Assembly: GCF_039545095.1 (NCBI RefSeq)
Contig: NZ_BAABRS010000004.1
Location: 124,001 to 188,000 of the forward strand
DNA: 64,000 nt
Direction of reading: 5' to 3'
DNA from: Fodinibius salicampi
GTDB lineage: Bacteria; Bacteroidota; Rhodothermia; Balneolales; Balneolaceae
Shown: positions 28,620 through 47,283 of the stretch, piece after piece
Layout of the letters: every line of letters starts with the position of its first letter
Position numbering within the stretch: the stretch's first letter is position 1
Program-made: the position numbers and the translations under genes
Notes under the pieces: model-generated
What the model was told of the DNA's origin: nothing
Databases searched by the model: none
Seen by the model: the letters and a program-made list of their open reading frames with translations, nothing else

Positions 28620-31148
28620 ATGAAAAGATCAGACAGAAAAAACATCATTGTTGTCGGAAATGGAATGGTAGGATACAAGTTTTGTGAGAAGCTTGTTTCA
28701 AAAGAAGGTGATGAAGCGTTTAACATCACTGTTTTTGGTGAGGAGCCCCGTCCAGCCTATGATCGTGTTCAGCTAAGCTCATATTTTGACGGAGCGGATG
28801 AAGAAGACTTGCAAATGGCCCCGGAGCAGTGGTACGAAGAACAGGGTATTGAACTGTTTACCGGTGAATTGGTTGTAGATCTGGATCGGGATAATAAAAC
28901 GGTTACGTCGCAAAAAGGTAGAACAGTCTCATACGACAAACTTATTCTTGCTACCGGATCAAGTGCCTTTGTCCCTCCCATAGAGGGTGTAGATAAAGAT
29001 GGGGTATTTGTCTATCGCACGATAGAGGATCTGGAAGCGATCACGAAATATGCAGCAGGAGCCAGCAAGGCTGCGGTCCTAGGAGGGGGCTTGCTGGGTT
29101 TAGAGGCGGCTAAATCAGCCATGGATTTGGGCCTCAAAACAAGTGTGATTGAGTTTGCCCCCCGCCTGATGCCCAAGCAGTTGGATGAAATTGGGGCTGG
29201 TGCTCTGAAAAAAGCACTCGAAGAGCTGGATCTGGAGATATTATTAAATAAAAACACAACCCTGATCGGAGGTAATGGAACTCCCCAATACCTCGATTTT
29301 GCAGATGGCGACCGCCTGGATGCCGACATGGTGATTATATCCGCGGGTATTCGACCACGCGATGAGCTTGCTAGAAAAGCTGACCTTGAAGTCGGTGAGC
29401 GCGGAGGAATAATTGTTGACGATCAATTAAAAACAAGTGATTCGGATATTTATGCTATCGGTGAGTCGGCTTTACACCGCGGGATGATCTATGGTCTTGT
29501 AGCCCCCGGATATGAGATGGCCGATGTAGTGGTAGAGAATCTTACTGGCGGTGAAGAGGAGTTTACGGAATTCGACATGTCAACCAAGCTGAAATTGGTA
29601 GGCGTGGATGTAGCCAGTTTTGGAGACGCATTTGGCGAATCGGAAGAAAACAGTAAGAAAGTCATAATAGACAATAAGGCGAAAGGTGTTTATAAGCGCA
29701 TCAACGTCTCGGAAGATGGTGATCGTCTGCTGGGCGGGATGCTTGTAGGTGATGCCGACGATTACAATATGCTTCTTCAAATAGCCCAAAACGGCTTTTC
29801 ACTTCCGCCTGATCCTGTTGATCTGATTATCGGAGATCGTGACGAAGAATCAAGCGGGGGGCAGAAGGTCTATGAATTTCCAGATGACTCCATTATTTGT
29901 TCCTGTGAAAGCGTGACAAAGGGAGAAATTTGTGATGTCATTGAAGAAGAAGGAAAAGAGGATATTGACAGTATAAAATCATGCACGAAGGCGGGAACGG
30001 GCTGCAGTGGCTGCGTACCCATGCTCGATGACCTGCTAACCCAATCCATGGAGGCCCGTGGTAAAGAAGTACGCAAAGTAATCTGTGAACACTTTGATTA
30101 TACCCGTCAGGAGCTGTTTGATATTATCAAGGTGAAAGAAATTCATACCTTCGATGAATTATTGGATGAAGTGGGGCAAGGCGATGGATGCGAAAAATGT
30201 AAGCCTGCTGTGGCTTCGTTGTTGGCAAGTGCCTTCAATGAACACGTACTCGAAGAACGAGATACCATTCAGGATACCAACGATCGCTTTCTGGCTAATA
30301 TTCAGCGCGGAGGTACTTATTCGGTTATTCCCCGGGTGCCCGGCGGAGAGATCACTCCGGATAAGCTGATCACTATTGGTGAACTGGCCAAGAAATACGG
30401 TCTTTATACTAAAATTACTGGTGGACAGCGTATCAACATGATGGGCGCCCGCGTCGATCAGCTTCCCGATATCTGGGAGGACCTGATTGAATCCGGTTTC
30501 GAAAGCGGTCATGCTTATGGTAAGGCGCTGCGTACCGTCAAAAGCTGTGTTGGTTCCACATGGTGCCGATACGGACTGCATGAATCTGTTTCATTTGCTA
30601 TCGAAATTGAGGAACGGTACCGCGGCTTGCGGGCCCCACATAAACTTAAGGGCGGGGTTTCTGGCTGTGTGCGTGAATGCGCGGAGGCCCAGGCTAAGGA
30701 CTTTGGAATAATAGCCACAGAAGAGGGTTGGAATCTGTTCGTATGCGGAAATGGCGGTACGAATCCCCAGCACGCTAAACTATTGGCTACTGACCTCGAT
30801 GAAGAGACGCTAATTAAATATCTGGACCGCTTCCTGATGTTTTACATTAAGACGGCCGAACATCTGAATCGAACTTCTACTTGGTTGAATAAGATGGAGG
30901 GCGGCCTCGAGTATCTGAGGAAAGTTGTGGTTGAAGACTCACTTGGAATAGGAGAAGAGCTTGAAAGAGAAATGCAGCAGCTGATTAATGTCTATTCCTG
31001 CGAGTGGAAAGAAGTGGTAAACAATCCGGAACTCAGGGAGCGGTTTACCCACTTTGTCAACTCCGATGATGTGGACCCCAGTGTCAAATTCAAAGACTAT
31101 CGCGAACAGCCTGTGCCCGCGCCATCTGGCTGGGAAGATGATGAGTAA
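28620..31148 (+). CDS. nirB: Assimilatory nitrite reductase [NAD(P)H] large subunit
   Basis: This subunit reduces nitrite to ammonium in the cytoplasm. The protein has 842 residues, close to E. coli NirB (847). Domains in order: a FAD/NAD(P) oxidoreductase (1-400; VGNGMVGYKFCEK at the start, VLGGGLLGLEAAKSA near 155), a [2Fe-2S] BFD-type domain (SIICSCESVTKGEICDVI, CTKAGTGCSGC, about 423-470), a second BFD-like segment that keeps fewer cysteines (VICEHF, DGCEKC), then the ferredoxin-like and sirohaem/[4Fe-4S] halves with CVGSTWC (C-x5-C) and GCVREC (C-x3-C). It is the first gene of the nitrate operon. Confidence 0.97.
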   Translation: MKRSDRKNIIVVGNGMVGYKFCEKLVSKEGDEAFNITVFGEEPRPAYDRVQLSSYFDGADEEDLQMAPEQWYEEQGIELFTGELVVDLDRDNKTVTSQKGRTVSYDKLILATGSSAFVPPIEGVDKDGVFVYRTIEDLEAITKYAAGASKAAVLGGGLLGLEAAKSAMDLGLKTSVIEFAPRLMPKQLDEIGAGALKKALEELDLEILLNKNTTLIGGNGTPQYLDFADGDRLDADMVIISAGIRPRDELARKADLEVGERGGIIVDDQLKTSDSDIYAIGESALHRGMIYGLVAPGYEMADVVVENLTGGEEEFTEFDMSTKLKLVGVDVASFGDAFGESEENSKKVIIDNKAKGVYKRINVSEDGDRLLGGMLVGDADDYNMLLQIAQNGFSLPPDPVDLIIGDRDEESSGGQKVYEFPDDSIICSCESVTKGEICDVIEEEGKEDIDSIKSCTKAGTGCSGCVPMLDDLLTQSMEARGKEVRKVICEHFDYTRQELFDIIKVKEIHTFDELLDEVGQGDGCEKCKPAVASLLASAFNEHVLEERDTIQDTNDRFLANIQRGGTYSVIPRVPGGEITPDKLITIGELAKKYGLYTKITGGQRINMMGARVDQLPDIWEDLIESGFESGHAYGKALRTVKSCVGSTWCRYGLHESVSFAIEIEERYRGLRAPHKLKGGVSGCVRECAEAQAKDFGIIATEEGWNLFVCGNGGTNPQHAKLLATDLDEETLIKYLDRFLMFYIKTAEHLNRTSTWLNKMEGGLEYLRKVVVEDSLGIGEELEREMQQLINVYSCEWKEVVNNPELRERFTHFVNSDDVDPSVKFKDYREQPVPAPSGWEDDE

Positions 31149-31214: not shown

Positions 31215-31562
31215 ATGCAAACGAAAGAAAACATCAAAAAATGGTTCAAAGCTGCCAGAGTTGACGATTTTCCCAAAAACGGAGGAGCCTGTGTAAAGTA
31301 TAAGGACAAGCAGATTGCGGTATTTAATTTTACCCGGCGCGGCGAATGGTTTGCCTGTCAGAATATGTGTCCCCACAAAAAGGAGATGGCTTTGGCCCGT
31401 GGAATGATCGGGGAATCGAAAGGCGAACCAAAAGTGGCTTGTCCCTTTCATAAAAAAGCTTTCTCGCTTTGTTCTGGTGAGAATATTAATGGCGAAGAAG
31501 ATCCGGTTACAACCTATCCGGTGAAAGTAGAGGATGGGTATGTGTATATCGGACTCTCGTAA
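31215..31562 (+). CDS. nirD: Nitrite reductase small subunit
   Basis: A Rieske-fold partner of NirB, 115 residues. The two cluster half-sites are present as CQNMCPHK and CPFHKK (C-x-H and C-x2-H order), within the NirD fold ending DGYVYIGLS. In the family, E. coli NirD lacks some of these ligands; here Cys and His are kept in both half-sites, so a real [2Fe-2S] Rieske cluster is possible. It lies 66 bases after nirB and 33 before moaCB. Confidence 0.92.
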   Translation: MQTKENIKKWFKAARVDDFPKNGGACVKYKDKQIAVFNFTRRGEWFACQNMCPHKKEMALARGMIGESKGEPKVACPFHKKAFSLCSGENINGEEDPVTTYPVKVEDGYVYIGLS

Positions 31563-32610: not shown

Positions 32611-33915
32611 ATGTTTTTTACAAAAAGCTACCTGGCGTCTGTTATAGTCTTTTCCTGTATTTTGTTACTGATATCTGCGAATACGCTTTTCGCCCAATTC
32701 AATCTATCTGGCGAGTTACGTCCCCGTACAGAACTTCGCCATGGATACAAAACTTTGCCAGCTGAGGGAGATAATGCTGCATTTTTTACTGAGCAGCGTT
32801 CCCGACTTAACCTCAATTATAGCAAAGATCTGTACAAGGTTGGTTTTACCGTTCAGGATGTACGTATCTGGGGTAGTCAGGGCCAGCTGAATAAAAGTGA
32901 CGGACTGTTTTCGGTGCACGAAGCATGGGGGCAAATTAATTTTAGTGAAAGTATTGCTCTGAAAGCCGGCCGACAGGAATTAGTGTATGACGATCAGCGA
33001 ATTTTGGGGAGTGTTGGATGGACAGCGCAAGGTCGAAGTCACGATGTTATGCTTGTTAAATTTACTGATGAAGCATGGACTCTGCATACCGGTTTTGCAT
33101 TTAATCAGGATATAAATCCACCAGAACCAGCCAAATTATTTGATACTTTTTATTCTGGAGTAAATAATTACAAGACCCTTCAATATCTCTGGTATCATCG
33201 TGAATTTGAATCTGCCGAGCTTTCTTTTTTATTCCTGAATAATGGTGTTCAGCAGCCGGATTCCACCGTAAACTTCACTCAAACAGTAGGGGTAACCGGC
33301 AGCCACACTTTTCCTGATTTTCAAGTGAACGGTACCACATACTATCAAACTGGAACAGATCCGTCTGGAGCTGAAAAGAGTGCTTTACTTGCTTCGGGGA
33401 ACATATCTTATTCGGGATTTAAAGATATCAGCTTGACTCTCGGTGCAGATTATCTTTCCGGAACACGAGCTGATCAGGAACAAAACCACTCCTTTAATCC
33501 CCTCTATGGGACGCACCACAAGTTCTATGGATTTATGGATTACTTTTATGTAGGTAATCCGCACTATCAGCAGACAGCAGACCATAACAATAATATTGGA
33601 TTGGTGGATCTTTACCTGCAATCAACGGTACAGGCTTCCAAAGAAACGACTGCCTCAGTCGCTTTTCATGAATTTATATCACCGGTCTCTATTGTCAATC
33701 CCATAAATCCAGTGAACAGGTTACGCAATCGGCTGGGCACTGAAATTGATCTTGTTTTTAGTCATGTACTATCCGAGGAGGTCAAAATCCAGGCTGGATA
33801 CTCTCATATGTTTGGAACCTCTTCATTAGAAGCAATCAAGGGTGGAAGCAGTAGTCAAACTTCTAACTGGACTTGGCTGATGCTCAGCTTTAATCCCCAT
33901 TTTTTATCGAAGTGA
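32611..33915 (+). CDS. Outer-membrane porin, alginate-export-like beta barrel
   Basis: The protein has 434 residues. The signal peptide ends at LFAQ, then ELRPRTELRHGYK opens a barrel of alternating strands typical of the alginate-export/OprE-like porin family: FFTEQRSRLNLNYSKD, KAGRQELVYDDQRILGSVGW and a C-terminal strand ending WLMLSFNPHFLSK. The RQEL-YDDQR motif is common in this family. Its place between moaCB and the nitrate transporter suggests that it lets nitrate/nitrite (or molybdate) cross the outer membrane; this is inference from context. Homologues of the family are named for alginate but many transport other anions. Confidence 0.82.
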   Translation: MFFTKSYLASVIVFSCILLLISANTLFAQFNLSGELRPRTELRHGYKTLPAEGDNAAFFTEQRSRLNLNYSKDLYKVGFTVQDVRIWGSQGQLNKSDGLFSVHEAWGQINFSESIALKAGRQELVYDDQRILGSVGWTAQGRSHDVMLVKFTDEAWTLHTGFAFNQDINPPEPAKLFDTFYSGVNNYKTLQYLWYHREFESAELSFLFLNNGVQQPDSTVNFTQTVGVTGSHTFPDFQVNGTTYYQTGTDPSGAEKSALLASGNISYSGFKDISLTLGADYLSGTRADQEQNHSFNPLYGTHHKFYGFMDYFYVGNPHYQQTADHNNNIGLVDLYLQSTVQASKETTASVAFHEFISPVSIVNPINPVNRLRNRLGTEIDLVFSHVLSEEVKIQAGYSHMFGTSSLEAIKGGSSSQTSNWTWLMLSFNPHFLSK

Positions 33916-33955: not shown

Positions 33956-35317
33956 ATGAAGACAACCGATACCAACAAAGCGACAAGTATTAACATTTTT
34001 AGTTTTGCAGCCCCGCATATGCGGACCTTTCACCTGTCCTGGATTTCGTTTTTCCTTTGTTTCTTTGGCTGGTTTGGGGTTGCTCCCCTAATGGCCGTAA
34101 TACGTGAGGAACTGGGCTTAACCCAATCACAAATTGGTAATACCATTATTGCATCAGTGGCAATTACGGTAATTGCACGGATATTTATCGGTCGGTTTTG
34201 TGATAAATATGGTCCCCGCCTTACCTATACGGTTTTGCTTATTTTTGGATCGATTCCTGTTATCGGTATTGGATTGAGCAATAGTTATGAAACATTTTTA
34301 CTGTTTAGATTAGCTATCGGGATTATCGGGGCTTCATTTGTGATAACCCAATACCATACCTCGGTTATGTTTGCAGATAACGTGGTGGGTACCGCCAATG
34401 CTACCACCGCAGGATGGGGGAATATGGGTGGAGGCGCTACTCAGGTAATTATGCCGCTTATTTTTGCCGGATTCGTATTTCTCGGCTTTGAGGACTCTTC
34501 TGCATGGAGATATGCTATGATTGTTCCGGGAATAGCTATGATTGTCTTGGGTATTCTTTACTACAATTATACAACTGATACTCCCAAAGGAAACTTCTCT
34601 GAGCTGAAAGTGGATTCCATAGCAGAACTTGAGGGCGAAGAGGAGGAAGCTGATGTATCAATGATTGAAGTAATGAAGGATTATCGGGTGTGGAGCCTGT
34701 TTGTAATCTATGGCGCTAGTTTTGGTATTGAACTAACGATCAATAATATCGCCGCTATTTATTACCACGATTATTTCTCTCTGGATCTGCAGACCGCCGG
34801 ACTTATTGCCGGGATGTTTGGCCTGATGAATATTTTTGCCCGTTCGGCCGGTGGATATCTGGGCGACAAGTTTGGAATTAAGTTTGGCCTCAAGGGTCGG
34901 GTTCGATTTCTGTTTGTTATGTTATTCTTGGAAGGGTTGGCCCTTATGCTCTTTTCCAGCATGGTGACCCTGACATTGGCTATTGGGACTATGATTTTCT
35001 TTAGTCTCTGCGTGCAGATGGCTGAAGGAGCCACCTATTCGGTCGTTCCTTTTGTAAACCGTAAAGCCGTAGGAGCCGTTTCCGGGATTGTAGGAGCTGG
35101 GGGAAATGCCGGTGCTGTGATGGCTGGCTTCCTGTTTAAATATGAATCTTTAGGCTATCCCGAAGCGTTGTTTATTATCGGGTGCGTTGTTACAGTGGTT
35201 TCCTTCCTCTCTTTTACCATTCGTTTCTCAATGGGTGACGAGAAAGAAGCGAGATATGAATTAGAAGAAGCCCTGTCAGATCCGGAACCCGAGTTAGAGC
35301 CGGCCTATGTTGATTAA
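33956..35317 (+). CDS. narK: Nitrate/nitrite transporter, MFS (NNP family)
   Basis: The protein has 453 residues and about 12 transmembrane helices. NNP signature stretches are present: FFGWFGVAPLMAVIREELGL in helix 1, RIFIGRFCDKYGPR between helices 2 and 3, and GWGNMGGGATQVIMP (nitrate signature 1) in helix 5, with a second glycine-rich motif GIVGAGGNAGAVMAGFL in helix 11. An acidic C-tail ends it. It lies between the porin and nitrate reductase genes, so it should import nitrate for assimilation. An 80-85-residue loop (GELKVDS... to MIEVMKDYRV) separates the two halves. Confidence 0.95.
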   Translation: MKTTDTNKATSINIFSFAAPHMRTFHLSWISFFLCFFGWFGVAPLMAVIREELGLTQSQIGNTIIASVAITVIARIFIGRFCDKYGPRLTYTVLLIFGSIPVIGIGLSNSYETFLLFRLAIGIIGASFVITQYHTSVMFADNVVGTANATTAGWGNMGGGATQVIMPLIFAGFVFLGFEDSSAWRYAMIVPGIAMIVLGILYYNYTTDTPKGNFSELKVDSIAELEGEEEEADVSMIEVMKDYRVWSLFVIYGASFGIELTINNIAAIYYHDYFSLDLQTAGLIAGMFGLMNIFARSAGGYLGDKFGIKFGLKGRVRFLFVMLFLEGLALMLFSSMVTLTLAIGTMIFFSLCVQMAEGATYSVVPFVNRKAVGAVSGIVGAGGNAGAVMAGFLFKYESLGYPEALFIIGCVVTVVSFLSFTIRFSMGDEKEARYELEEALSDPEPELEPAYVD

Positions 35318-35437: not shown

Positions 35438-38400
35438 ATGAATATGGATCAATCCGGAACTGAAAAATTTAAATCTACCTGTTCTTACTGTGGAGTAGGA
35501 TGTGGTGTTATTGTAGAAAAGAACGCCAAAGGCCAGATTGAGGTTACCGGGGATGAATCGCATCCAGCAAACAAAGGGATGCTCTGTTCCAAAGGAATGA
35601 ATCTGCACTACACGGTGTCAGATCATTCTGACCGGCTACTCTACCCACAGATGCGATGGGCCCGCAATCAGCCTCGCAGACGCGTAGACTGGGATACAGC
35701 CCTGGATCGGGCGGCGGCGGTGTTCGGTACTTTTATCAATAAATATGGACCCGATTCTGTGGGGTTTTATGTTTCAGGCCAATGCCTTACTGAGGAATAT
35801 TATACGGTCAATAAGCTTGCTAAAGGATTTGTAGGCACGAATAATATAGATACGAATTCGCGGCTCTGCATGAGTTCAGCCGTAGCTGGGTACAAGAAAT
35901 CCCTGGGAGAAGATTCACCGCCGATCAGCTACGATGATATCGAGCTGGCCAACTGTTTTTTTATAACCGGTGCCAATCCGGCCTGGTGCCATCCTATTCT
36001 TTTTCGCCGTATTGAAGCCCACAAAGAGAAGCATCCGGATGTTAAAGTTATCGTTGCCGATCCTCGGGAAACACAATCCTGCTCTATAGCGGATCTTCAC
36101 CTGCAGCTAAACCCGGGCACCGATACGGTGTTATACCATGCCATTGCCCGCTGCCTGATTGAAAATGACCGGATTGACGAATCGTTCATCGAAAACCATA
36201 CCGATGGATTTGAAGATCTTAGAGCCCAGGTTATGTCAAGGTCGCTGGAGCAAGCAGCCAAGACCTGTGGCTTGGAAGTAAGGGAAATTAAGCAGGTTGC
36301 CCGATGGATTGGTGATGCCAACGGCTTTATTTCAATGTGGGCGATGGGGCTTAACCAAAGTGTGGATGGCACCGATAAAAATCTCGCGCTTATTAATCTT
36401 TCCCTCATTACGGGCCAGATCGGCAAACCCGGCGCGGGTCCTTTTTCACTGACCGGACAGCCCAATGCTATGGGGGGACGTGAAGTGGGCGGTATGGCCA
36501 ATCTGCTTTCCGCGCACCGCGATCTCAGTAATCCGGAACACCGACAGGAGGTGGCCGATCTCTGGAATGTTAATTCGGTTCCCGCAGAGCCTGGCTATTC
36601 GGCAACCGAAATGTTTGACGCTTTGCGGAATGGGAATATGAAAGCAATTTGGGTCATTTGTACTAACCCGGTAGTGAGTCTCCCCAATTCTGCCATGGTC
36701 GAAGAAGCGCTTAAAAAGGCCAAATTTGTAATCGTACAGGATATTTCACAGGATTCCGAAACCGTTGATTATGCCGACCTGGTGTTGCCGGCAGCAGGAT
36801 ACCTGGAGAAAGAGGGCACGATGACTAATTCTGATCGCCGAATTAGCTACTTAAATAAAGTGGTAGAAGCACCTGGCGAGGCTCTGCCGGATGCCGAGAT
36901 ATTGTGCCGTTTTGCCCGCAAGATGGGGTATGAGGGATTTGACTTCGATTCGGCCGAAGAGATATTTGATGAGCATTGTAAGCTTACTAAGGGGACCAAT
37001 ATTGATATCAGTGGATTAAGTCATGAGTATTTAAAACAAAATGGAACGGTTCAGTGGCCATTTCCGGAGGGAGCGGTAGAGGGGACACGGCGTTTATTTC
37101 TGGACCACCAGTTTTATACGGCCAACGGTCGTGCTCAAATCCACACCCAGAGTAAGAAACTGCCAAAGCGCCGGGATGAAGACCGACCACTGGTGTTAAC
37201 GACGGGTAGAATTCGTGATCAATGGCACACAATGACCCGCACTGGCAAAGTGAGTCGGCTCAATCAGCATATTGATGAACCTTATATCGAAATACATCCT
37301 GAGGATGCCCGTAAGCATGGTATTGGCAATGAAGACGTGGTTGAAGTAATAAATGATCGGGGAGCAGTTCGTGTGCGAGCGGTGCTCTCAGAAGCCATAA
37401 AGCCCGGTGTTGTATTTATCCCGATGCATTGGGGAAAGATACTCCAAAAAGATTTTCCGCGAGCGAATAATTTGACCAGCGATAGAGTAGACCCCGTTTC
37501 AAAGGAACCTGACTTTAAATTCTCAACCGTAGAGGTTTCAAAATTTGAAAAAGAGAAGGAGAAAATTATTGTGGTTGGGGCCGGAGCCGGAGGTTTTCAG
37601 TTTGTCAATAGCTATCGCGAGTACAATACGGAAGATGAGGTAGAAGTTTTCTCCAAAGAGTATGACTGGTTTTATAATCGGGTATTGCTTCCTGACTATA
37701 TCAGTGGAGAGTTGGATTGGAAGAAGCTGAAGAAAATGCAGTCCGATAAGCTCGTAGAACTCGATATCCTTATGCACGAGGGCATCAGCGTGGCGAGCAT
37801 AGATCCCGATACGCAAACCATTATTGATTCAAATGGCGATATGCATTCTTATAATAAACTGGTTCTTTCTACCGGAAGTCGTGCAAATTTTCCTAATGGT
37901 ATTCCCCGTTTGCCGGGCGTATTCACCATCCGTCATCGAGACGATGCTGAAGAGCTGATCGAATACACAAATAAGGAAGGCCATGTAGTAATTGTAGGCG
38001 GTGGACTCCTTGGATTAGAGATGGCAGCTGCACTGCGAAAAGTTGATATAGCAGTTACACTGGTACATCGCAATCCAAGGCTGATGGAGAGGCAGCTTGA
38101 TACAACCGCGAGTGAATTGCTCTATGAACACATACGAGACTGTGACATTAATGTGATATTTAACGACGAAATTGAGCATTTGTCTCAACGAGAAAATGGA
38201 GTTCATGCGTCTTTGAAGAGTGGTAAATTTATGGATTGCAAGGCGGTAGTTTATGCGATAGGCACTCGTCCGAATATCGGTCTGGCAAAAAAAGCAGATC
38301 TGGAATGTAAAAGGGGCATAGTGGTTAATGAGCATCTGCAAACCAGCGATCCCAATATTTATGCGATTGGAGAAATTGCCGAGCACAAAGGATCCATGAA

Positions 38401-38947
38401 TGGAATAACAGCTGCAGCGGAAGAACAGGCGGATATTGCGGCTGCTTATATTTCAGGTGATCTCTCCAGCAGCTATTCGGGTACGGTTTCCATGAATATA
38501 TTGAAGTTCCCCAACCTTGAACTCTGCTCGATGGGTATAACCGAGATACCCGACAGTGCATCCGGATATGAAAAAATCGTATTGGTGGATAAGAGCGAGC
38601 GATTTTATAAGAAATGCATTGTCTACCAAGACCGATTGGTAGGTGCTATTTTGATGGGAGATAAGACTGAGTTCAATGAGTTTCGCCGACTGATAGATAA
38701 TAACATGGAGTTATCTGATCGGCGTAAAGAGTTGTTGCGTTCCGGTCAGTCGCTGACACCATTGAAAGGCGAAGTAGTCTGTTCCTGCAATAATGTTGGA
38801 GACGGAAATATTCTAGAGGCTATTCGTGAGGGATGTGAAGATTTCAAAGATCTTTGCAATCAAACGGGGGCAGGAACAGGCTGTGGAAGCTGTAAGCCCG
38901 AAGTAAAAGCAATCCTTGAACAGGCTACAGTGAAATTAAAGCAGTAG
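35438..38947 (+). CDS. nasC: Assimilatory nitrate reductase fused to FAD/NAD(P) electron-transfer and [2Fe-2S] domains
   Basis: The protein has 1169 residues. Residues 1-700 are a Mo-bisMGD nitrate reductase: the [4Fe-4S] motif CSYCGVGCGV (Cys15, 18 and 22, with LCSKG), DTNSRLCMSSAV near the Mo site and the C-terminal MGD domain LVLTTGRIRDQWHTMTRTG. Residues 705-1080 are a NirB/NasB-type FAD-NAD(P) oxidoreductase (IVVGAGAGGFQF, then VIVGGGLLGLEMAAAL). The end is a BFD [2Fe-2S] domain (VVCSCNNVGDGNILEAI, CGSCKPE). So one chain holds catalytic and electron-input modules that are separate NasC and NasB subunits in Bacillus. It should be cytoplasmic; there is no Tat signal. Confidence 0.95.
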   Translation: MNMDQSGTEKFKSTCSYCGVGCGVIVEKNAKGQIEVTGDESHPANKGMLCSKGMNLHYTVSDHSDRLLYPQMRWARNQPRRRVDWDTALDRAAAVFGTFINKYGPDSVGFYVSGQCLTEEYYTVNKLAKGFVGTNNIDTNSRLCMSSAVAGYKKSLGEDSPPISYDDIELANCFFITGANPAWCHPILFRRIEAHKEKHPDVKVIVADPRETQSCSIADLHLQLNPGTDTVLYHAIARCLIENDRIDESFIENHTDGFEDLRAQVMSRSLEQAAKTCGLEVREIKQVARWIGDANGFISMWAMGLNQSVDGTDKNLALINLSLITGQIGKPGAGPFSLTGQPNAMGGREVGGMANLLSAHRDLSNPEHRQEVADLWNVNSVPAEPGYSATEMFDALRNGNMKAIWVICTNPVVSLPNSAMVEEALKKAKFVIVQDISQDSETVDYADLVLPAAGYLEKEGTMTNSDRRISYLNKVVEAPGEALPDAEILCRFARKMGYEGFDFDSAEEIFDEHCKLTKGTNIDISGLSHEYLKQNGTVQWPFPEGAVEGTRRLFLDHQFYTANGRAQIHTQSKKLPKRRDEDRPLVLTTGRIRDQWHTMTRTGKVSRLNQHIDEPYIEIHPEDARKHGIGNEDVVEVINDRGAVRVRAVLSEAIKPGVVFIPMHWGKILQKDFPRANNLTSDRVDPVSKEPDFKFSTVEVSKFEKEKEKIIVVGAGAGGFQFVNSYREYNTEDEVEVFSKEYDWFYNRVLLPDYISGELDWKKLKKMQSDKLVELDILMHEGISVASIDPDTQTIIDSNGDMHSYNKLVLSTGSRANFPNGIPRLPGVFTIRHRDDAEELIEYTNKEGHVVIVGGGLLGLEMAAALRKVDIAVTLVHRNPRLMERQLDTTASELLYEHIRDCDINVIFNDEIEHLSQRENGVHASLKSGKFMDCKAVVYAIGTRPNIGLAKKADLECKRGIVVNEHLQTSDPNIYAIGEIAEHKGSMNGITAAAEEQADIAAAYISGDLSSSYSGTVSMNILKFPNLELCSMGITEIPDSASGYEKIVLVDKSERFYKKCIVYQDRLVGAILMGDKTEFNEFRRLIDNNMELSDRRKELLRSGQSLTPLKGEVVCSCNNVGDGNILEAIREGCEDFKDLCNQTGAGTGCGSCKPEVKAILEQATVKLKQ

Positions 38948-39148: not shown

Positions 39149-40624
39149 ATGAAAAAAAATGATCTCATCCGAGCTTTCATTCCCGGTGGAGTTTTAACCC
39201 CAAGGGACTTAAAAAAGATTATCGGCATTGCCCAGGACTTGGGGAATGAGGTGGTCCATTTTGGGTCAAGGCAAGATATTATGTTTCCGGGTGATGAGGT
39301 GGATCAAAAAAAATTGGATGAAGAATTTGGTTCGATTCAAACAAATTACGAATGGAGCGGACGACGGTATCAGAATATTGTTACTTCCTATTTGGCGGTG
39401 GACTTAATGGCAAGTTCTCCGTGGGTCACTTCGGGAACCTATTTTAATGTGCTTGAATATTTTGACTATCGGCCCCGGTTAAAAATAAATATAACGGATC
39501 CCAAGCAGAGCCTGGTCCCGTTGTTCAACGGACAACTTAATTTTGTGGCTTCCGACCATGAGGACTATTGGTATCTGTTTATTAAGCTCAACTCCTCCGA
39601 TGAACTGCAGCGCTGGCCGGTCTTGGTTGATAGCCAGGATATAGGAAAGTTAGCTGCTGCTATAGAGGAGTACCATTTTAGACCTGAAAAGGAAAGTATC
39701 ATATCCACCAAGAATTTATTCGACGAGATAAATAAAAAAGTAGGGACAAATAACAGAACTATTGACAAAGACTTGGATTACCCCTCTGAGCCCTTTCCAT
39801 ATTATGAAGGATTGAATAAAATGGCTGGTAACAAGTATTGGCTGGGATTGTATTGGCGAAACAATCGCTATACCATCTCTTTCTTAGAGAAGGTTTGCAA
39901 CCTTTGTGAGCAGACCAACTGTGGACGAATTATCATTACTCCCTGGAAGTCTTTTATTGTTAAGGATATTTCAGAAGAAGACCGGCCGAAGTGGGAACTC
40001 TTGTGTGGTAATAATGGAATTAATTTGAGGCACTCGTCCCTCGAACTCAATTGGCATTTGCCCGTGCTTGATGATTCAGCTCTGAAGTTGAAAAATTACC
40101 TGGTTGATGTGTTTGACAAGCACGATATCAGCACGTATGGACTAACGTTTTCTATCAAGGAGCAGCCGGTTAACTTGTTTACTTCTGTTGCTATTCTTAC
40201 CCAGCCGAGTATCCGGCTGTTTGGAAAATATAATGTTTTGAAGCGCTATAATGTACTATACAGCAAGAATTTTGATCCCAATGAGGAGCATTATATCCCA
40301 TTTGCAATGTATGTCTCAAAGAAGGAGCTGCCTAATGTTCTGATGAGGCTGAGCAGGATATACTACGAAGAAATGAATAAGGAAAAGGAAGATAGGATAT
40401 GGGAGGAGCAGGAAGAGGAACCTTCTTTGCAAACCGCATTTCAATGTTCGGATTGTATGACGACCTATGATGAGCGATACGGAGATCCACAGTCGGGTAT
40501 TCCTGAAGGAATACCTTTTGTTGAGCTTCCTAATACGTATTCTTGTCCGATGTGTGAGGCTCCGAAATCTTCATATCAGGAAATAAAAATTGATTTTGGT
40601 GAGGAGATAAGTCAGGAATATTAA
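39149..40624 (+). CDS. Sirohaem-reductase-like protein with C-terminal rubredoxin domain
   Basis: The protein has 491 residues from ATG 39149; an earlier start at 39107 adds 14 residues of weak coding quality. The first part resembles the NIR/SIR ferredoxin-like half (FIPGGVLTPRDLKKI, RQDIMFPGDEVD) and a second half follows (SSPWVTSGTYFNVLEYF, TPWKSFIVKD). The usual sirohaem/[4Fe-4S] cysteines (C-x5-C and C-x3-C) are absent; only a CNLCEQTNC cluster lies near residue 265. Residues 430-480 form a complete rubredoxin (CSDC...YD...GIPFVELPNTYSC, CPMC). It is probably an electron-transfer or assembly partner of the nitrate reductase; no experimental role is known to me. Confidence 0.82.
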   Translation: MKKNDLIRAFIPGGVLTPRDLKKIIGIAQDLGNEVVHFGSRQDIMFPGDEVDQKKLDEEFGSIQTNYEWSGRRYQNIVTSYLAVDLMASSPWVTSGTYFNVLEYFDYRPRLKINITDPKQSLVPLFNGQLNFVASDHEDYWYLFIKLNSSDELQRWPVLVDSQDIGKLAAAIEEYHFRPEKESIISTKNLFDEINKKVGTNNRTIDKDLDYPSEPFPYYEGLNKMAGNKYWLGLYWRNNRYTISFLEKVCNLCEQTNCGRIIITPWKSFIVKDISEEDRPKWELLCGNNGINLRHSSLELNWHLPVLDDSALKLKNYLVDVFDKHDISTYGLTFSIKEQPVNLFTSVAILTQPSIRLFGKYNVLKRYNVLYSKNFDPNEEHYIPFAMYVSKKELPNVLMRLSRIYYEEMNKEKEDRIWEEQEEEPSLQTAFQCSDCMTTYDERYGDPQSGIPEGIPFVELPNTYSCPMCEAPKSSYQEIKIDFGEEISQEY

Positions 40625-40644: not shown

Positions 40645-40887
40645 ATGCGATTGAATGTAAAGCTTTATGGAATAACAAAAGAGATCATCGGTCAAACGGA
40701 ATTGGAATACTGCCTTTCTTCATCGCCGGATGTATCTTCATTACGAAAAGAACTTAGAAGAGAATATCCTGAACTCGGCCGACTTACATCATTGATGGTT
40801 GCCGTCAATGGGGAGTATGCTCCCCAGGATTTAGTATTGAATGAACAAGACGAGGTGGTTCTCATCCCCCCGGTAAGCGGAGGATGA
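40645..40887 (+). CDS. moaD: Molybdopterin synthase small subunit
   Basis: A ubiquitin-fold sulfur carrier of 80 residues ending VLIPPVSGG; the terminal Gly-Gly is adenylated and thiocarboxylated to donate sulfur to precursor Z. It lies 20 bases after the rubredoxin gene and 30 before moaE, its partner. No moeB-type activating enzyme is visible in the window. Confidence 0.93.
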   Translation: MRLNVKLYGITKEIIGQTELEYCLSSSPDVSSLRKELRREYPELGRLTSLMVAVNGEYAPQDLVLNEQDEVVLIPPVSGG

Positions 40888-40917: not shown

Positions 40918-41328
40918 ATGGTTGAACTAACAGACAAACCTATTGATGTACAGCAAATGATTAACCGGGTTTCGTCAGAAAAAGCCGGCGCATTGGCACT
41001 TTTTATTGGGACGGTCAGAAATATGACTGATGGCAAACGGGTAGTAAAGCTCGACTTTGAAGCCTATGATAAGATGGCAATATCGGAACTTGAAAAAATC
41101 GTGAATAGAGCCAAAGAGCAATGGCCAATAAAGAATATTTCAGTCATTCATCGCATCGGCGAGCTGCGAATCTCCGATATTGCCGTGGTCATCGCTGTTT
41201 CATCACCCCATCGCAAAGAAGCATTTAGAGCTTGTGAATTTGTGATTGATACCCTCAAAGAAACGGTCCCTATTTGGAAGAAAGAGTTTTTTGAGGACAA
41301 GGAAGTTTGGGTGTCTGCACATCCGTGA
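40918..41328 (+). CDS. moaE: Molybdopterin synthase catalytic subunit
   Basis: The protein has 136 residues and pairs with MoaD to convert precursor Z to molybdopterin. Family marks: GALALFIGTVRNMTDGKRV near the start, LDFEAYDKMA, IHRIGELRISDIAVVIAVSS, HRKEAFRACEFVID and the final WKKEFFEDKEVW with the catalytic lysines. It is the last gene of the nitrate operon before a terminator. Confidence 0.95.
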   Translation: MVELTDKPIDVQQMINRVSSEKAGALALFIGTVRNMTDGKRVVKLDFEAYDKMAISELEKIVNRAKEQWPIKNISVIHRIGELRISDIAVVIAVSSPHRKEAFRACEFVIDTLKETVPIWKKEFFEDKEVWVSAHP

Positions 41329-41549: not shown

Positions 41550-42389
41550 TTAATTTATCCTCTTGGGAAGTTCTTCTGCTATTTCGTTAATAAAGATAGC
41601 CAGCTTGGGACGCGAAGGCTCAAAATCAGCCTTAATTCCATGTGACTCCAATCCACCAGAGCAAACGGGTCCGATGGATGCCACTACTACTTCTTTCAGG
41701 GCCTTGCGCAACTCCTCTTTGGATGCCACCATACCTGCTACCTTCATCACATGATTAACCTGAGTTTTACTGGTGAAAAGTACAATATCTGTTTCTCCAT
41801 CCAGAATAGCCCGAATGCCTTTTTTTAACGGTTTCAGATCATCCGGAAGAGCCCAGCGGTAGATAGAGGTCTGCAATAATTCAGCACCGCGTGCCTCTAA
41901 TTCTCTATTTAGTTTTTCATTCGGTTCGCCATATTCCTGTATGGCTATGAGCTTTTTATTTAAATCCGAGGTTAATTTGTTATCGGCAAGGGATTTAAGG
42001 AGCTCTTTCCAAGTGTTAGGTTCCGGCACTTTTATATCAATCGGTATATCGAGCTCACGAAGTACTTTAGCCGGCTTAGGTCCACGCGAAACAACAGTAA
42101 GATCCGATAATGCCTGGTGTATATTCTCCCAGTCGTACTTGGTTTTCATGGTTTTAACCAGCATATCTGTGCCTACACCCGTCATGCAAATCAGAATATC
42201 TACATTACCGGCAAAGAGTTCATCGCAGAATGAAAATACAGCGGTATGATTTTCCAAGGGTACTTCCTGCATGGATGGGGCGCTAATAGTCCGGGCTCCT
42301 TTTCGTTGCAAGAGTTGTGCGGTAGAATTTGCCATTCGGCTTTCAAATGCCAAAGCCGTAATATTTTCAAGTGGAGTTGTAGTGCTCAT
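41550..42389 (-). CDS. hemD: Uroporphyrinogen-III synthase
   Basis: This enzyme closes hydroxymethylbilane to uroporphyrinogen III, the substrate of CobA/SUMT. The protein has 279 residues in two similar half-domains. Family stretches: ICMTGVGTDMLVK, VVSRGPKPAKVLRELDI, LIAIQEYGEPNEKLNREL, IVLFTSKTQVNHVMKVA and VVASIGPVCSGGLESHGI. HemD is usually near other haem genes; its place here beside mobA fits sirohaem supply for NirB. It lies 93 bases downstream of mobA on the same strand. Confidence 0.93.
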   Translation of the reverse strand: MSTTTPLENITALAFESRMANSTAQLLQRKGARTISAPSMQEVPLENHTAVFSFCDELFAGNVDILICMTGVGTDMLVKTMKTKYDWENIHQALSDLTVVSRGPKPAKVLRELDIPIDIKVPEPNTWKELLKSLADNKLTSDLNKKLIAIQEYGEPNEKLNRELEARGAELLQTSIYRWALPDDLKPLKKGIRAILDGETDIVLFTSKTQVNHVMKVAGMVASKEELRKALKEVVVASIGPVCSGGLESHGIKADFEPSRPKLAIFINEIAEELPKRIN

Positions 42390-42482: not shown

Positions 42483-43643
42483 TCATCGGGTTGATAATTT
42501 TGCCAGAGCCTGCTCATATTCCCCGGGATTATTGGCATTCATAAGCTCTTGTGAATCAGGAGGATCTAATAGCTGAACGTCAGCGTTGATTAATGCCTTC
42601 CGGGGACAAGAGTGGCCCATTCCCAGAAACGTCAGTAGAACCTGGTAACTTTTAGGTTCCCAAATGGTAATAAGCGGTTCCGGGAATCCGCTCTCGTTAT
42701 TTTTAAATGCAGTGGCAATTTTAGAAGGATTTTGATTCTCTTTGAGACTCTCTAACGTTTTGGATGTTAACAAAGGAAGATCGCAGGCCACTGTGAGGAA
42801 GGCTGAATCTGGATGCTGCTTGAAAGCTGATAATAGGGCTCCCATGGGACCCATATCCAGAAAGGAATCGGTAATAATGTTATAACCCTCCGGTATATCT
42901 GATTGCTGTTCCTTTCGGCATGAGAGGAATACTTCATCGCAATAATCATCCAGCAGTTCATAGAGATGCACGCGTTGCGGCTTGCCATGATAGTCTAACT
43001 TGGTTTTGTCGGTGTGCATTCTTGTACTTTTTCCACCGGCCAATACCAATCCTTTCAAGGGGGATATTGCACCCTCTAAAAGTTGTTCAATATTGGAGGC
43101 AATTTTTGCAGTATCTCCAATTTTAAAAACAGGGACCTGGTCCATCTCTTTTATATTTTTCTTCACGTAATCAGGTATCCGGGTTAGTCCTTCTTGCAAT
43201 ACAATGAGCTTTGTATTGGCTAAATCTTCCGGTTTTACCGGCTTCCGTGGATCAATAACTGTAATTCGGTTTTGGACTTTAAAATGATTCCCGTTAAGAA
43301 GTATCAAGTCTACTTCATTAAAGATCGATTTGACCTGATAGTTATTCAGCCTCTTTTTAAAATTAAATTTTTGTACGGACTCTGTCTGAATATGGACCAG
43401 GTCAGTATCTGGATACGTTTCTGAACTATCTCTATCAGAACTATTTTTATCCCAATGCTCTGCATCTATATAGCCGAGCTGGTACTTTTGGGATAACTGT
43501 TTGCTAAGTTGATTGGCAAACTTTTTAATGGCCGTACAAGTGGTACCAACAATGGACAGCTCATTTCTGCCAAATGTACCATCATGCGCCTTAGCTAATG
43601 AAGTGTGTTTTTGATGAGGTTGCCCGTTCTTATTCTTTGGCAT
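42483..43643 (-). CDS. mobA: Molybdenum cofactor guanylyltransferase with MobB-like N-terminal domain
   Basis: The protein has 386 residues. The C-terminal 190 are MobA, which adds GMP to molybdopterin to make the MGD cofactor needed by the nitrate reductase (LKGLVLAGGKSTRMHTDKT near residue 198, MGPMGALLSAF, ACDLPLL). The N-terminal part has a MobB-like layout (LSIVGTTCTAIKKFANQLS, IDAEHWDK, VDLILLNGNHF), but the phosphate-binding loop GxSGSGKTT of real MobB is lost. So the first domain is probably a non-hydrolysing adaptor. It is divergent from moeA over 143 bases. Confidence 0.88.
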   Translation of the reverse strand: MPKNKNGQPHQKHTSLAKAHDGTFGRNELSIVGTTCTAIKKFANQLSKQLSQKYQLGYIDAEHWDKNSSDRDSSETYPDTDLVHIQTESVQKFNFKKRLNNYQVKSIFNEVDLILLNGNHFKVQNRITVIDPRKPVKPEDLANTKLIVLQEGLTRIPDYVKKNIKEMDQVPVFKIGDTAKIASNIEQLLEGAISPLKGLVLAGGKSTRMHTDKTKLDYHGKPQRVHLYELLDDYCDEVFLSCRKEQQSDIPEGYNIITDSFLDMGPMGALLSAFKQHPDSAFLTVACDLPLLTSKTLESLKENQNPSKIATAFKNNESGFPEPLITIWEPKSYQVLLTFLGMGHSCPRKALINADVQLLDPPDSQELMNANNPGEYEQALAKLSTR

Positions 43644-43786: not shown

Positions 43787-44998
43787 ATGATAGGAGTATC
43801 AGAGGCTAGTGATATTATTAATGGGATAAAGCTGAAGATAGAGACTGAGAAACTTGATATTTCTGAAACTGTTGGAATGATTCTCCGGGAATCCATAACA
43901 CTGGATAGGGATTTACCCCCTTTCGACCGGGTTATGATGGATGGAATTGCTATTCAGTATGATAAGTGGGAACAGGGGCAGAGCGTGTTTCCGGTAGAGG
44001 GGTTACAAAAAGCAGGGGGACCTAAGCAGGTCATGGATGGTAGCGGACACTGTATGGAAGTTATGACCGGAGCAATATTACCAGGTAAGACGGATACTGT
44101 GATTCGGTATGAGGATATTGAAATCCAGCAGCAGGAAAAAGAAACTGTAGCAGTTATACAAAAAAGTCCGAAAGCAAAGGGACAGAATATCCATCCAAAA
44201 GGAACTAATCGCCCAAAAGGGGATCTGGTAGCGAACGAAGGCATGGTTCTAAGTCCGGCCGAAATTGGGGTAGCTGCTACGGTGGGGAAGACACGGCTGA
44301 ACGTTTCGAGAGTACCGGAAGTGGCCGTTATATCCACTGGCGATGAGCTGGTACCTATCAGCCAGCGTCCGCTTCCCCACCAAATACGTCGATCAAATGC
44401 CTATACAATCTCTGCGGCACTGCGAGAGCTACATATGGAAGCAGAGCTGTTTCATCTGAATGACGATCGTTCTGAGATTTCCAAAAGACTGGATGATATA
44501 CTCAAAAAATTTGAGTTGGTGATTTTAAGTGGAGGCGTCTCCAAGGGTAAATTAGACTATATTCCAGGGATTCTTGAGCAGAAGGGGGTAGAAAAACTCT
44601 TTCATAAAGTGCGACAGCGTCCGGGCAAACCCTTCTGGTTTGGAAAATCTGAGGAGTCCGTGGTATTTGCCCTGCCGGGAAATCCGGTTTCTACTTTTTC
44701 CTGCTGTTACAGGTATGTTATGCCTTGGCTGAAAAAGCAGTTAGGAATAAGTAAAAGAAATCAATTAATGGCTCAGCTTACTGTAAATTATACCTTCGAG
44801 AAAAAGTTAACCTATTTTTTGCAGGTGAAAGTTGAAATTAATGATGAAGGTATTATGAAGGCTACTCCGGTAAAAGGGAAAGGTTCCAGTGATTTAGCCA
44901 ATCTGTGCAAGGGCGATGGCTTTCTGGAGTTGCCGGAAGATCAAGACCATTTTAAGGCCGGGGAAAGCTATCCTCTGTTTCTGTATCGAACTTTATAA
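43787..44998 (+). CDS. moeA: Molybdopterin molybdenumtransferase
   Basis: This enzyme inserts molybdate into adenylylated molybdopterin. The protein has 403 residues. Motifs: RESITLDRDLPPFDRVMMDG, MTGAILPGKTDTVIRYEDI, KGQNIHPKGTNRPKGD, VAVISTGDELVP, ILSGGVSKGKLDYIPGIL and FALPGNPVSTFSC. It is monocistronic and convergent with modC with almost no gap (two bases). Confidence 0.95.
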   Translation: MIGVSEASDIINGIKLKIETEKLDISETVGMILRESITLDRDLPPFDRVMMDGIAIQYDKWEQGQSVFPVEGLQKAGGPKQVMDGSGHCMEVMTGAILPGKTDTVIRYEDIEIQQQEKETVAVIQKSPKAKGQNIHPKGTNRPKGDLVANEGMVLSPAEIGVAATVGKTRLNVSRVPEVAVISTGDELVPISQRPLPHQIRRSNAYTISAALRELHMEAELFHLNDDRSEISKRLDDILKKFELVILSGGVSKGKLDYIPGILEQKGVEKLFHKVRQRPGKPFWFGKSEESVVFALPGNPVSTFSCCYRYVMPWLKKQLGISKRNQLMAQLTVNYTFEKKLTYFLQVKVEINDEGIMKATPVKGKGSSDLANLCKGDGFLELPEDQDHFKAGESYPLFLYRTL

Positions 44999-45000
44999 CT

Positions 45001-45864
45001 TTAAAGTTTATGCTGATAGTTTTTTGATGTAACTCTTAATGAAATAGTAGTACCGATCCGGATATCCGGATTTTTGTCTGGGTCATATGGAATATGTATC
45101 AAACCATGGTGTGATGTTACAACAAGTATATTTTTGTCGAATAGAATATCAATAACTTTAACAACGCCTGGCTTCATATTTTGGGCAGGTTGTGAATATA
45201 TTAGTTCAGCGGGGTTTCCAGTTTGCGCTATTTTTCCCTGATGGAGCGTAATAGCACGGTCTGTGAGCTGTACTATTTCTGCTGGATCGTGCGAGACTAA
45301 GATCATGATTCCATCAAAATTAGAAGAGACGCGTAAGAGATCATGCCGTAACTTTGTTCTCATTTCTGGATCCAGGGCTGAAAGGGGTTCATCTAAAAGC
45401 AGGAGCTGAGGCTGGCGGATGAGGGCACGTCCAAGACCTACCCGTTGTTTTTGCCCCCCGGAAAGAGTAGCTGGTTTTTGATTAGCTATAGAAGTAATAT
45501 CCAGCATCTCGAGAATTTCATGTAGGCGATGGCGATTTACGTCGCCGGAGAAAGCAAATTCCAAATTTTCTTGGACATTCATATTTGGAAATAGGGCATA
45601 ATCCTGGAAAACAAATCCGATATCTCTTTGTTGTGGTGGTCGATTGATATTACGGTCTGAATCAAACCAGAGATTATCGTTAACCTTTAATTTGCCCGAA
45701 TCAGGGGTTATCAGGCCGGCCAGTATTTTTAGTAAGGTAGTTTTACCGGCTCCGGAAGGCCCCAATATACCTATATTTTCCTGAGCGTCTATTTGAAGAT
45801 TGATCTCCAAATATGGAGTAGGTCCCCCTGGATTGAGTTTTTTATAAACAGAGCACTGGATCAT
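45001..45864 (-). CDS. modC: Molybdate ABC transporter ATP-binding protein
   Basis: The protein has 287 residues. Walker A is GPSGAGKTTLLK, signature LSGGQKQRVGLGRAL, Walker B LLLLDEPLSALD. A C-terminal TOBE-type domain (about 220-280, MKPGVVKVIDILFDKNILVV) binds oxyanion or senses it. The ATG overlaps the modB stop (ATGA). This is the last gene of moaA-modABC. Confidence 0.93.
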   Translation of the reverse strand: MIQCSVYKKLNPGGPTPYLEINLQIDAQENIGILGPSGAGKTTLLKILAGLITPDSGKLKVNDNLWFDSDRNINRPPQQRDIGFVFQDYALFPNMNVQENLEFAFSGDVNRHRLHEILEMLDITSIANQKPATLSGGQKQRVGLGRALIRQPQLLLLDEPLSALDPEMRTKLRHDLLRVSSNFDGIMILVSHDPAEIVQLTDRAITLHQGKIAQTGNPAELIYSQPAQNMKPGVVKVIDILFDKNILVVTSHHGLIHIPYDPDKNPDIRIGTTISLRVTSKNYQHKL

Positions 45865-46496
45865 AAAAAATTGATGTTTCTGTAATGTTGGTAAGAGTGG
45901 ACAGCAAGTAACACCAGCAGAGAAAAAATAAGCAGTATAAGGGAGTAAGAATTGGCAGCTGCATAATTCATGCTTTCCACCTCGTTATATATTGCTATAG
46001 AAGCCACTCTTGTTTTGCCCGGTATATTTCCGCCAATCATAAGAACCATACCAAATTCACCAATGGTATGCGCAAATGACATTACAATACCTATCAGGAT
46101 GGAAGGCTTTATGTTTGGAATCATTACTTTATAAAACGTGGTAACTTTAGACTTCCCGAGGGTAAAAGCAGCATCTTGAAAGTTTTGGGGTAAGTTTTCA
46201 AGACCGGATAGTATTGGATTCATCATAAAAGGGAGGCTATAAATGATGGACCCCGCAACTAGGCTTGTAAAACTAAAGGCTAAATTTGATTCGCTTAAAG
46301 CAATCAGCATATAGAAACCGAGGACAGTTGGAGGTAAGACAAAAGGCAAATTGATCAGCGATTTCAAAAGCGGAGTTATTCCTGAGCTATAAAAAAAGAT
46401 ATAGCAACAAAGAGGGATACTTGCCGCTAAAAGTATAATCGTTGTGACCGTGGCAAGTTCAAGACTTAAAATAAATGGATACCAGAATGAGTCCAT
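45861..46496 (-). CDS. modB: Molybdate ABC transporter permease
   Basis: The protein has 211 residues with about five transmembrane helices. The EAA loop is AAFTLGKSKVTTFYKVMIPNI, followed by GIVMSFAHTIGEFGMVLMIGG, typical of ModB/CysT permeases. I chose ATG at 46496, which follows the modA stop by one base; an upstream start would overlap modA by 66 bases. Confidence 0.93.
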   Translation of the reverse strand: MDSFWYPFILSLELATVTTIILLAASIPLCCYIFFYSSGITPLLKSLINLPFVLPPTVLGFYMLIALSESNLAFSFTSLVAGSIIYSLPFMMNPILSGLENLPQNFQDAAFTLGKSKVTTFYKVMIPNIKPSILIGIVMSFAHTIGEFGMVLMIGGNIPGKTRVASIAIYNEVESMNYAAANSYSLILLIFSLLVLLAVHSYQHYRNINFL

Positions 46497-46497
46497 A

Positions 46498-47283
46498 TCA
46501 GTATTTTTTTGGAGGATTTTTATAACCAAACTGTTGGAAAACACACTGTGCCCGTTTGCCAAAAAGATAGTCCATAAATAATTCAGCCCGATGTATTTGG
46601 CGATCCTGATTATCTTCTTGTTGGATTATTACAGCCCCGTGGGGAATTTTGAGTGGTAGTACCTTCCAATGGCCCTTTTCCCTTAATTGTGTCATATCAA
46701 TTGCAGAGGATGAACTAAAAGCTGCACTTACTTGGTCTGAGAAAATAAATTGATTAACCTGGGTTACATTTTCTCCAAATACTAGTCTTTCCTGAACATG
46801 TTGATATAGCTCATTTTCTTTCAGCCATTGCTTGGCTGCTTTACCAAATGGGGCAAACTTCGGATTGGCAATAGCTATATTTTGCTGTTGATTCTTTTGT
46901 AGGATGTCTTCAGCTGATTTCCCTAATAGCGGTGTGTTACTCCAGAATACCAGTGATCCTAAAGTGAATATCTGAGGTTCGAAAAACGTTTTACCTTGTT
47001 CAAATACTTTTTGAGGATATTGGAGATCTGCCGACAGGAAAAGATCATAGGGAGCGCCGTGTAGAATTTGGGTTGCAAGAACACCGGAAGATGCACTAAT
47101 GAGTTCAACGTCAATTTCGTATTGGTCTTCGAATGCTGCTGTGACTTCTTCCAGGGGGACTTTAAGGCTGCTGGCTACGGCAACAGTTAACTTACCGGAA
47201 TGCTTTGGAACAGATCCTAAATAGCTACCTACTAAAAGCAGACAGGCCAAGAGTGCCAAATTTATTCGGTGTATTGATATCAT
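46498..47283 (-). CDS. modA: Molybdate-binding periplasmic protein
   Basis: The protein has 261 residues. A signal peptide (LALLACLLLVGSYLG) precedes the binding fold: LTVAVASSLKVPLEEV, ISASSGVLATQILHGAPYDLFLSAD, FAPFGKAAKQWL and VSAAFSSSSAID. The motif SSGVLATQI with GAPYDLF is the oxyanion site of ModA-type proteins. It is 43 bases downstream of moaA. Confidence 0.94.
   Translation of the reverse strand: MISIHRINLALLACLLLVGSYLGSVPKHSGKLTVAVASSLKVPLEEVTAAFEDQYEIDVELISASSGVLATQILHGAPYDLFLSADLQYPQKVFEQGKTFFEPQIFTLGSLVFWSNTPLLGKSAEDILQKNQQQNIAIANPKFAPFGKAAKQWLKENELYQHVQERLVFGENVTQVNQFIFSDQVSAAFSSSSAIDMTQLREKGHWKVLPLKIPHGAVIIQQEDNQDRQIHRAELFMDYLFGKRAQCVFQQFGYKNPPKKY

Follow-up and report, generated by a model that had tools for sequence, protein, structure and literature searches.

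A sulfite/nitrite reductase-like protein without sirohaem ligands and with a C-terminal rubredoxin accompanies the FAD-fused nitrate reductase NasC in Bacteroidota and Balneolota

The target gene and its neighbourhood

The window analysed here, a stretch of 64,000 nucleotides from Fodinibius salicampi, contains at 39149-40624 (+) an open reading frame which we confirmed as the gene for a protein of 491 aa, hereafter the target. The ATG at 39149 was chosen as its start in line with the starts of homologues; the mechanically called frame opens at TTG 39107. Pfam recognizes NIR_SIR_ferr twice in the target (PF03460, E 1.9e-14) and, at aa 431-475, a rubredoxin (PF00301, E 3.5e-13, above cut-off); no other Pfam family was matched at E 0.1, and a comparison with PHROGs gave no match. 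In two plasmid records, homologues are annotated just as 'rubredoxin'.

The target follows nasC (35438..38947, +) after a gap of 201 bases and precedes moaD (40645..40887, +) by 20 bases, which agrees with the position given in the initial annotation. The NasC protein, of 1169 aa, was assigned with Pfam and NCBIfam as a nitrate reductase extended by a NirB/rubredoxin-reductase-like FAD domain and a BFD [2Fe-2S] domain (NasC-FAD), with its Cys ligands kept, although the NCBIfam NasC model matched it below its cut-off. Its flavin part matches Pyr_redox_2 and Rubredoxin_C; because NirB of the window has the same Rubredoxin_C match, the one in NasC is no specific sign. The other genes of nitrate assimilation are those for the sirohaem nitrite reductase large subunit NirB (28620..31148, +; TIGR02374 and PRK14989 above cut-off), a Rieske protein (31215..31562, +; PF13806) which is probably NirD, a name taken from its position beside nirB, and a NarK-type nitrate/nitrite transporter (33956..35317, +; TIGR00886 above cut-off). 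MoaD is a ThiS family protein (TIGR01682 just under its cut-off) and is followed by MoaE (40918..41328, +; PF02391).

Further genes for the Mo cofactor lie around the operon at 31596-32549, 42483-43643, 43787-44998, 45001-47283, and 47327-48328, encoding a MoaC-MoaB fusion, a MobA-domain protein, MoeA, a binding-protein/permease/ATPase transporter, which we infer to be probably for molybdate, and MoaA. A tetrapyrrole methylase and a uroporphyrinogen-III synthase (27490-28272 and 41550-42389, both on the minus strand) flank the operon and probably serve the sirohaem of NirB. The operon also contains an outer-membrane porin-like gene (32611-33915; Alginate_exp, barely above cut-off), perhaps a nitrate porin, and similar genes were found at 25 of 45 NasC-linked loci.

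The adjacency of moaD seems to be local. With MoaD of the window as the sole query at E 1e-10, a search that a divergent moaD could escape, moaD was found near the target at 3 of 45 NasC-linked loci, one of them a duplicate, so that a conserved link between the two genes was not found. In two plasmids, the next annotated genes after the target are those for an acyltransferase and cobA. A link to moaD that is not found conserved lends little support to a role of the target in cofactor loading.

Predicted fold

An AlphaFold2 model of the target, built with 43 homologues, has a mean pLDDT of 83.9. PDB fold matching aligned 376 of its residues with E. coli SiRHP (Z 28.2, rmsd 3.4). Further matches are M. 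tuberculosis NirA, at Z 24.8, and rubredoxin, at Z 9.4. A second predicted model, that of a homologue 34% identical to the target, gave nearly the same values (pLDDT 86.2; SiRHP, Z 28.3, rmsd 3.2, 383 residues; NirA, Z 24.8). With hhalign, the profile of the target aligned over the whole body with 21 sulfite/nitrite reductase (SiR/NiR) sequences at a probability of 98-99% over 388-412 columns; this larger set was required, as five close NirAs alone gave a weak match (probability 8%). Thus, the body is predicted to be a complete two-half SiR/NiR fold, and the two NIR/SIR-like halves and the C-terminal rubredoxin of the initial annotation are borne out by both Pfam and the fold match.

The protein can be divided into a first ferredoxin-like half domain (aa 5-65, 39161..39343, +) with the invariant R41-Q42 and the best PF03460 stretch (aa 7-52), a first NIR_SIR-like domain (aa 66-215, 39344..39793, +) placed by profile alignment with the SiR family, where the limits of both were set by us, a second half domain (aa 216-295, 39794..40033, +), a second NIR_SIR-like domain (aa 296-412, 40034..40384, +), and the rubredoxin domain (aa 429-479, 40433..40585, +) with Cys 433, 436, 466, and 469. 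The second half domain shows the highest conservation, with 26 of 80 positions conserved at ≥95%, and contains a conserved CxxC (C250 and C253; 39896..39907, +) in a predicted helix at 243-256.

The target shares its whole two-half fold with CysI/SiRHP and NirA, and differs from them in having an added rubredoxin and no cysteines for [4Fe-4S]/sirohaem. It also lacks the N-terminal extension of CysI, beginning at the residue aligned with about residue 80 of the E. coli protein. In carrying a rubredoxin on a linker, fused to a redox enzyme, the target resembles flavorubredoxin NorV and class III hybrid cluster protein, the rubredoxin of the latter being a fold match (Z 9.2), but in contrast to these, no metal centre is recognised in the body that bears it.

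Conserved residues and missing metal ligands

The second NIR_SIR-like domain aligns with the part of SiR that bears the C-x5-C and C-x3-C ligands. These are visible in E. coli CysI within the profile alignment, and no such Cys column exists in the 43 homologues, as the initial annotation had read from the single sequence. Besides the four rubredoxin cysteines, only C250 and C253 form Cys columns that are kept in most of the 43 homologues. C253 is Cys in 43/43, C250 is Cys in 42/43 and Ser in one member, and each rubredoxin Cys is kept in 42/43. The 'CNLCEQTNC' cluster of the initial annotation is present in the window, but only its CxxC is conserved: the third cysteine, C258, is Cys in 3/43 homologues and Ile in 38, and a three-Cys CxxCx4C cluster was rejected as a conserved element. 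Apart from the rubredoxin and the CxxC pair, no further conserved site for a cofactor emerged from the 43 homologues, including any that the initial annotation might have missed.

Two copies, L070:9293-10738 and L072:9269-10645, have a rubredoxin reduced to two CxxC knuckles and a short loop, with all four Cys kept; such a remnant might bind Zn in a structural role.

Despite identities to the window protein down to 31%, 32 columns are invariant across the 43 sequences, which indicates that the family is under constraint. Some of the conserved residues are of the kind that an active reductase with an unconventional cofactor, acting on nitrite, NO, or hydroxylamine, might keep. R41, Q42, R237, K267, E299, and K315 are invariant and R294 and H295 near-invariant in the 43 sequences. 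Moreover, of R83, R153, K215, and K217 in E. coli SiR, which we take to be the basic substrate-binding residues, R83 aligns with R8 (R in 35/43 and K in 5/43, basic in 40/43) and K217 with K112 (K in 35/43 and R in 7/43, basic in 42/43). However, the position aligned with R153 is basic in 0/43 and that aligned with K215 in 30/43, the Cys ligands are missing, and NirB is already present in all 27 carriers with NasC-FAD tested. Furthermore, the sole copy away from NasC-FAD, among copies with the upstream side examined, is one truncated orphan. An active reductase is therefore very unlikely.

Distribution and pairing with NasC-FAD

A near-full-length target was found in 28 of 394 genomes of the phylum. 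The other 94 of 122 matching genomes, with best E of 6.4e-11 or weaker, were not counted as carriers, and among the matches listed theirs cover the rubredoxin part only. In the family of genome G025, which judged by named relatives is Flavobacteriaceae, the target is present in 84 of 378 genomes and 62 of 237 genera, with an in-frame stop in 2 of the 84 copies. NasC-FAD was found in 32 of the 394 phylum genomes, 27 of which also have the target, and a search of 244 genomes of the window's class brought two more carriers and three more genomes with NasC-FAD but no target. Thus, the target is present in 29 of 37 NasC-FAD genomes and missing in 8, and 27 of the 28 carriers in the phylum set have NasC-FAD.

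NasC-FAD lies at most 1.1 kb upstream of the target on the same strand in 44/44 distinct loci (45 counted minus L173, a duplicate of L031; L042 and L073, where the contig ends upstream of the gene, and the duplicates L049 and L074 had been excluded before counting). In a second set, comprising the 30 of 84 family copies with the upstream side examined and sharing at least G025 and G021 with the first, the target lies behind the FAD part of NasC in 30/30 loci. Homologues are thus not found mostly away from nitrate genes, and the suggestion in the initial annotation of an additional element of nitrate assimilation, poorly described and linked to FAD-fused NasC, is supported. With the starts that we chose, on which the lengths depend, nasC and the target overlap by 1 or 4 bases at 12 distinct loci and by 11 bases at one. 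The gap is 606 bases in L069 and 954 bases in L072, where it includes a 269-aa open reading frame. At a strong cut-off, NarK was found in 24 and NirB in 17 of the same 45 loci. Homologues are also located on four plasmids, from Persicobacter (2), Spirosoma, and Hymenobacter, and NasC-FAD is adjacent in all three that were fetched.

Among copies with the upstream side examined, one truncated orphan alone sits away from NasC-FAD. This copy (L073:273-1553, genome G126) starts 273 bases from the contig end and breaks off ahead of the rubredoxin; in its genome, neither NasC-FAD at E 1e-100 nor NirB was found. It looks like a relic. Outside Bacteroidota and Balneolota, no target was found in a pattern scan of genome contigs (17 loci) or in plasmids (4 records), searches that are best at finding close relatives; profile searches covered the window's phylum and class and the family of G025.

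Genomes with NasC-FAD but without the target

The eight NasC-FAD genomes without the target belong to the window's class but not to its family and are, at a guess, Rhodothermia/Salinibacter-like; a profile search detected no divergent copy in them. At the five non-carrier loci that were read, NarK and a NirA-like gene lie near NasC-FAD, and the proteins confirmed there by Pfam are one NirA, a flavodoxin, and two FAD/NAD reductases. In one of these five loci (L105-L109), at L108:2951-6674, NirA, flavodoxin, and FAD/NAD reductase are encoded consecutively, and by eye all three proteins open with a similar short PF-x-x-x-Q stretch, which is perhaps a common docking peptide.

In a tree of NasC-FAD, one branch with an SH-aLRT of 100 parts 46 carrier rows (one a duplicate) from six non-carriers; the tree was made by a quick method with midpoint rooting, long branches were flagged, and the non-carriers G179 and G491 were left out. 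Such a split may reflect one gain or one loss of the target. At E 1e-100, NirB was found in 27/27 carriers with NasC-FAD and in 0/5 non-carriers. In the further carriers G394 and G426, the contig bearing NasC also has a NIR_SIR-containing open reading frame of about 850 aa, and three further non-carriers have only NIR_SIR reading frames of 587-716 aa.

This contrast, together with the NirA-like gene near NasC at the five non-carrier loci, would fit a target that acts between NasC and NirB. As a rubredoxin relay or scaffold, comparable to NasG of Paracoccus, it would then connect nitrate with nitrite reduction. However, the non-carriers all belong to one class and count as one evolutionary event, and from a single split one cannot tell whether the target follows NirB or NasC. 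In addition, NirB lies on another contig or more than 10 kb away in several carriers. Distances among 27 genomes also point to NasC: for the SiR part, partial r values, given without a significance test, are 0.72 and 0.73 with NasC versus -0.31 and -0.19 with NirB, so that its divergence does not track NirB once NasC is accounted for. The rubredoxin part is less clear, with partial r of 0.45-0.51 with NasC versus 0.03-0.21 with NirB. We therefore regard a role between the two enzymes as unlikely.

In NasC-FAD, all 44 carriers and the four non-carriers that were aligned retain the cysteines assigned to the [4Fe-4S], Mo, and [2Fe-2S] sites, and the idea that carrier NasC has lost its own centres and hence needs an outside carrier was rejected. 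Eleven positions differ between carrier and non-carrier NasC, scattered over the protein and inseparable from ancestry. Apart from the rubredoxin of the target, 27 of 30 carrier genomes have no PF00301 match; in the eight NasC-FAD genomes without the target, no rubredoxin was detected at all. This search missed the two shortened rubredoxins.

Alternatively, the target may be a redox enzyme maturation protein for NasC that takes charge of apo-NasC, its Mo cofactor, or sulfur during assembly by means of the empty SiR-like cleft or the CxxC, while the rubredoxin keeps the site reduced. No NarJ/TorD (PF02613) was detected in the 30 carrier genomes, whereas it is present in 4/8 NasC-FAD genomes without the target; the CxxC is near-invariant, and the half domain bearing it is the most conserved region. 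According to a study in Paracoccus, NarJ matures NasC there, and the authors leave additional NasC chaperones to be explored (PMC6618116). On the other hand, the remaining 4/8 non-carriers have neither NarJ/TorD nor the target, so that NasC-FAD can presumably mature without both. The Ser at C250 in one member and the moaD linkage that was not found conserved also argue against maturation. Although both are accessories linked to molybdoenzymes, the NarJ/TorD family is unrelated to the target, which matches neither PF02613 nor PF02634 (FdhD/NarQ) at E 0.1. The distribution of FdhD (10/28 carriers, 1/5 non-carriers) is not complementary to that of the target, and the target as a replacement of FdhD was rejected. 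Taken together, a maturation factor is conceivable but on balance rather improbable.

A NasC-FAD accessory

The direct basis for an interpretation consists of the predicted fold, the loss of ligands, the conserved rubredoxin and CxxC, and the tight genomic pairing with NasC-FAD. The target is very probably a partner of NasC-FAD of some kind. Since NasC-FAD seems complete, the target seems to be an accessory; the cysteines of a complete chain in NasC-FAD and its presence without the target in 8/37 genomes also stand against a simple electron donor. We prefer a one-electron relay or docking accessory over a maturation factor, with a probability of about 0.45.

In this relay, an SiR/NiR-type enzyme would have lost its [4Fe-4S] and sirohaem ligands and become a scaffold, which may dock on NasC-FAD, carrying a flexibly tethered rubredoxin. 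The rubredoxin would most likely accept single electrons from the NasC flavin, and could hand them on inside the NasC complex or to another protein, for instance NirB. The pairing, the single tree branch, the NasC-like divergence of the SiR part, and a rubredoxin that is conserved and usually the only one detected in the genome are consistent with the relay, as is the absence of a rubredoxin from the lone orphan, whose genome gave neither NasC-FAD nor NirB. Against it stand the unspecific Rubredoxin_C match, the cut-down rubredoxins of L070 and L072, and the reading frame between nasC and the target in L072; the likeness of NasC and target distances can also stem from linkage alone.

Redox proteins that are encoded in nasC operons and needed for nitrate reduction offer an experimental parallel: in Paracoccus, NasC receives electrons from NasG (PMC5424462), and in Bradyrhizobium, Flp is required for growth on nitrate, not nitrite (PMC4724949). 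NasG is a Rieske protein and Flp a flavoprotein, whereas here NasC itself bears the flavin and the [2Fe-2S] domain, and the target matches no Rieske domain of the NasG/NirD type at E 0.1. The low potential that the initial annotation ascribed to rubredoxins does not fit typical ones, for which PMC10502027 gives about -50 to +50 mV.

Conclusions

At the level of titles and the beginnings of abstracts, we found no description of the target protein in the open-access literature. The folds are known, and so is the kind of role, an accessory of a molybdenum nitrate reductase; to our knowledge, their combination has not been encountered elsewhere. One might go further and see in this cofactor-stripped fold an assembly or electron-handling factor specific for nitrate reductase, a redox pseudoenzyme which replaces NarJ-type chaperones for nitrate assimilation in Bacteroidota and Balneolota, but this is doubtful.

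In summary, the target seems to be an almost constant companion of one type of nitrate reductase, present in 84 of 378 genomes of what is probably Flavobacteriaceae. The question, raised in PMC6618116, of which factors besides NarJ serve NasC-type enzymes thereby becomes testable, and the target would exemplify a catalytic redox fold retained as a non-catalytic partner.
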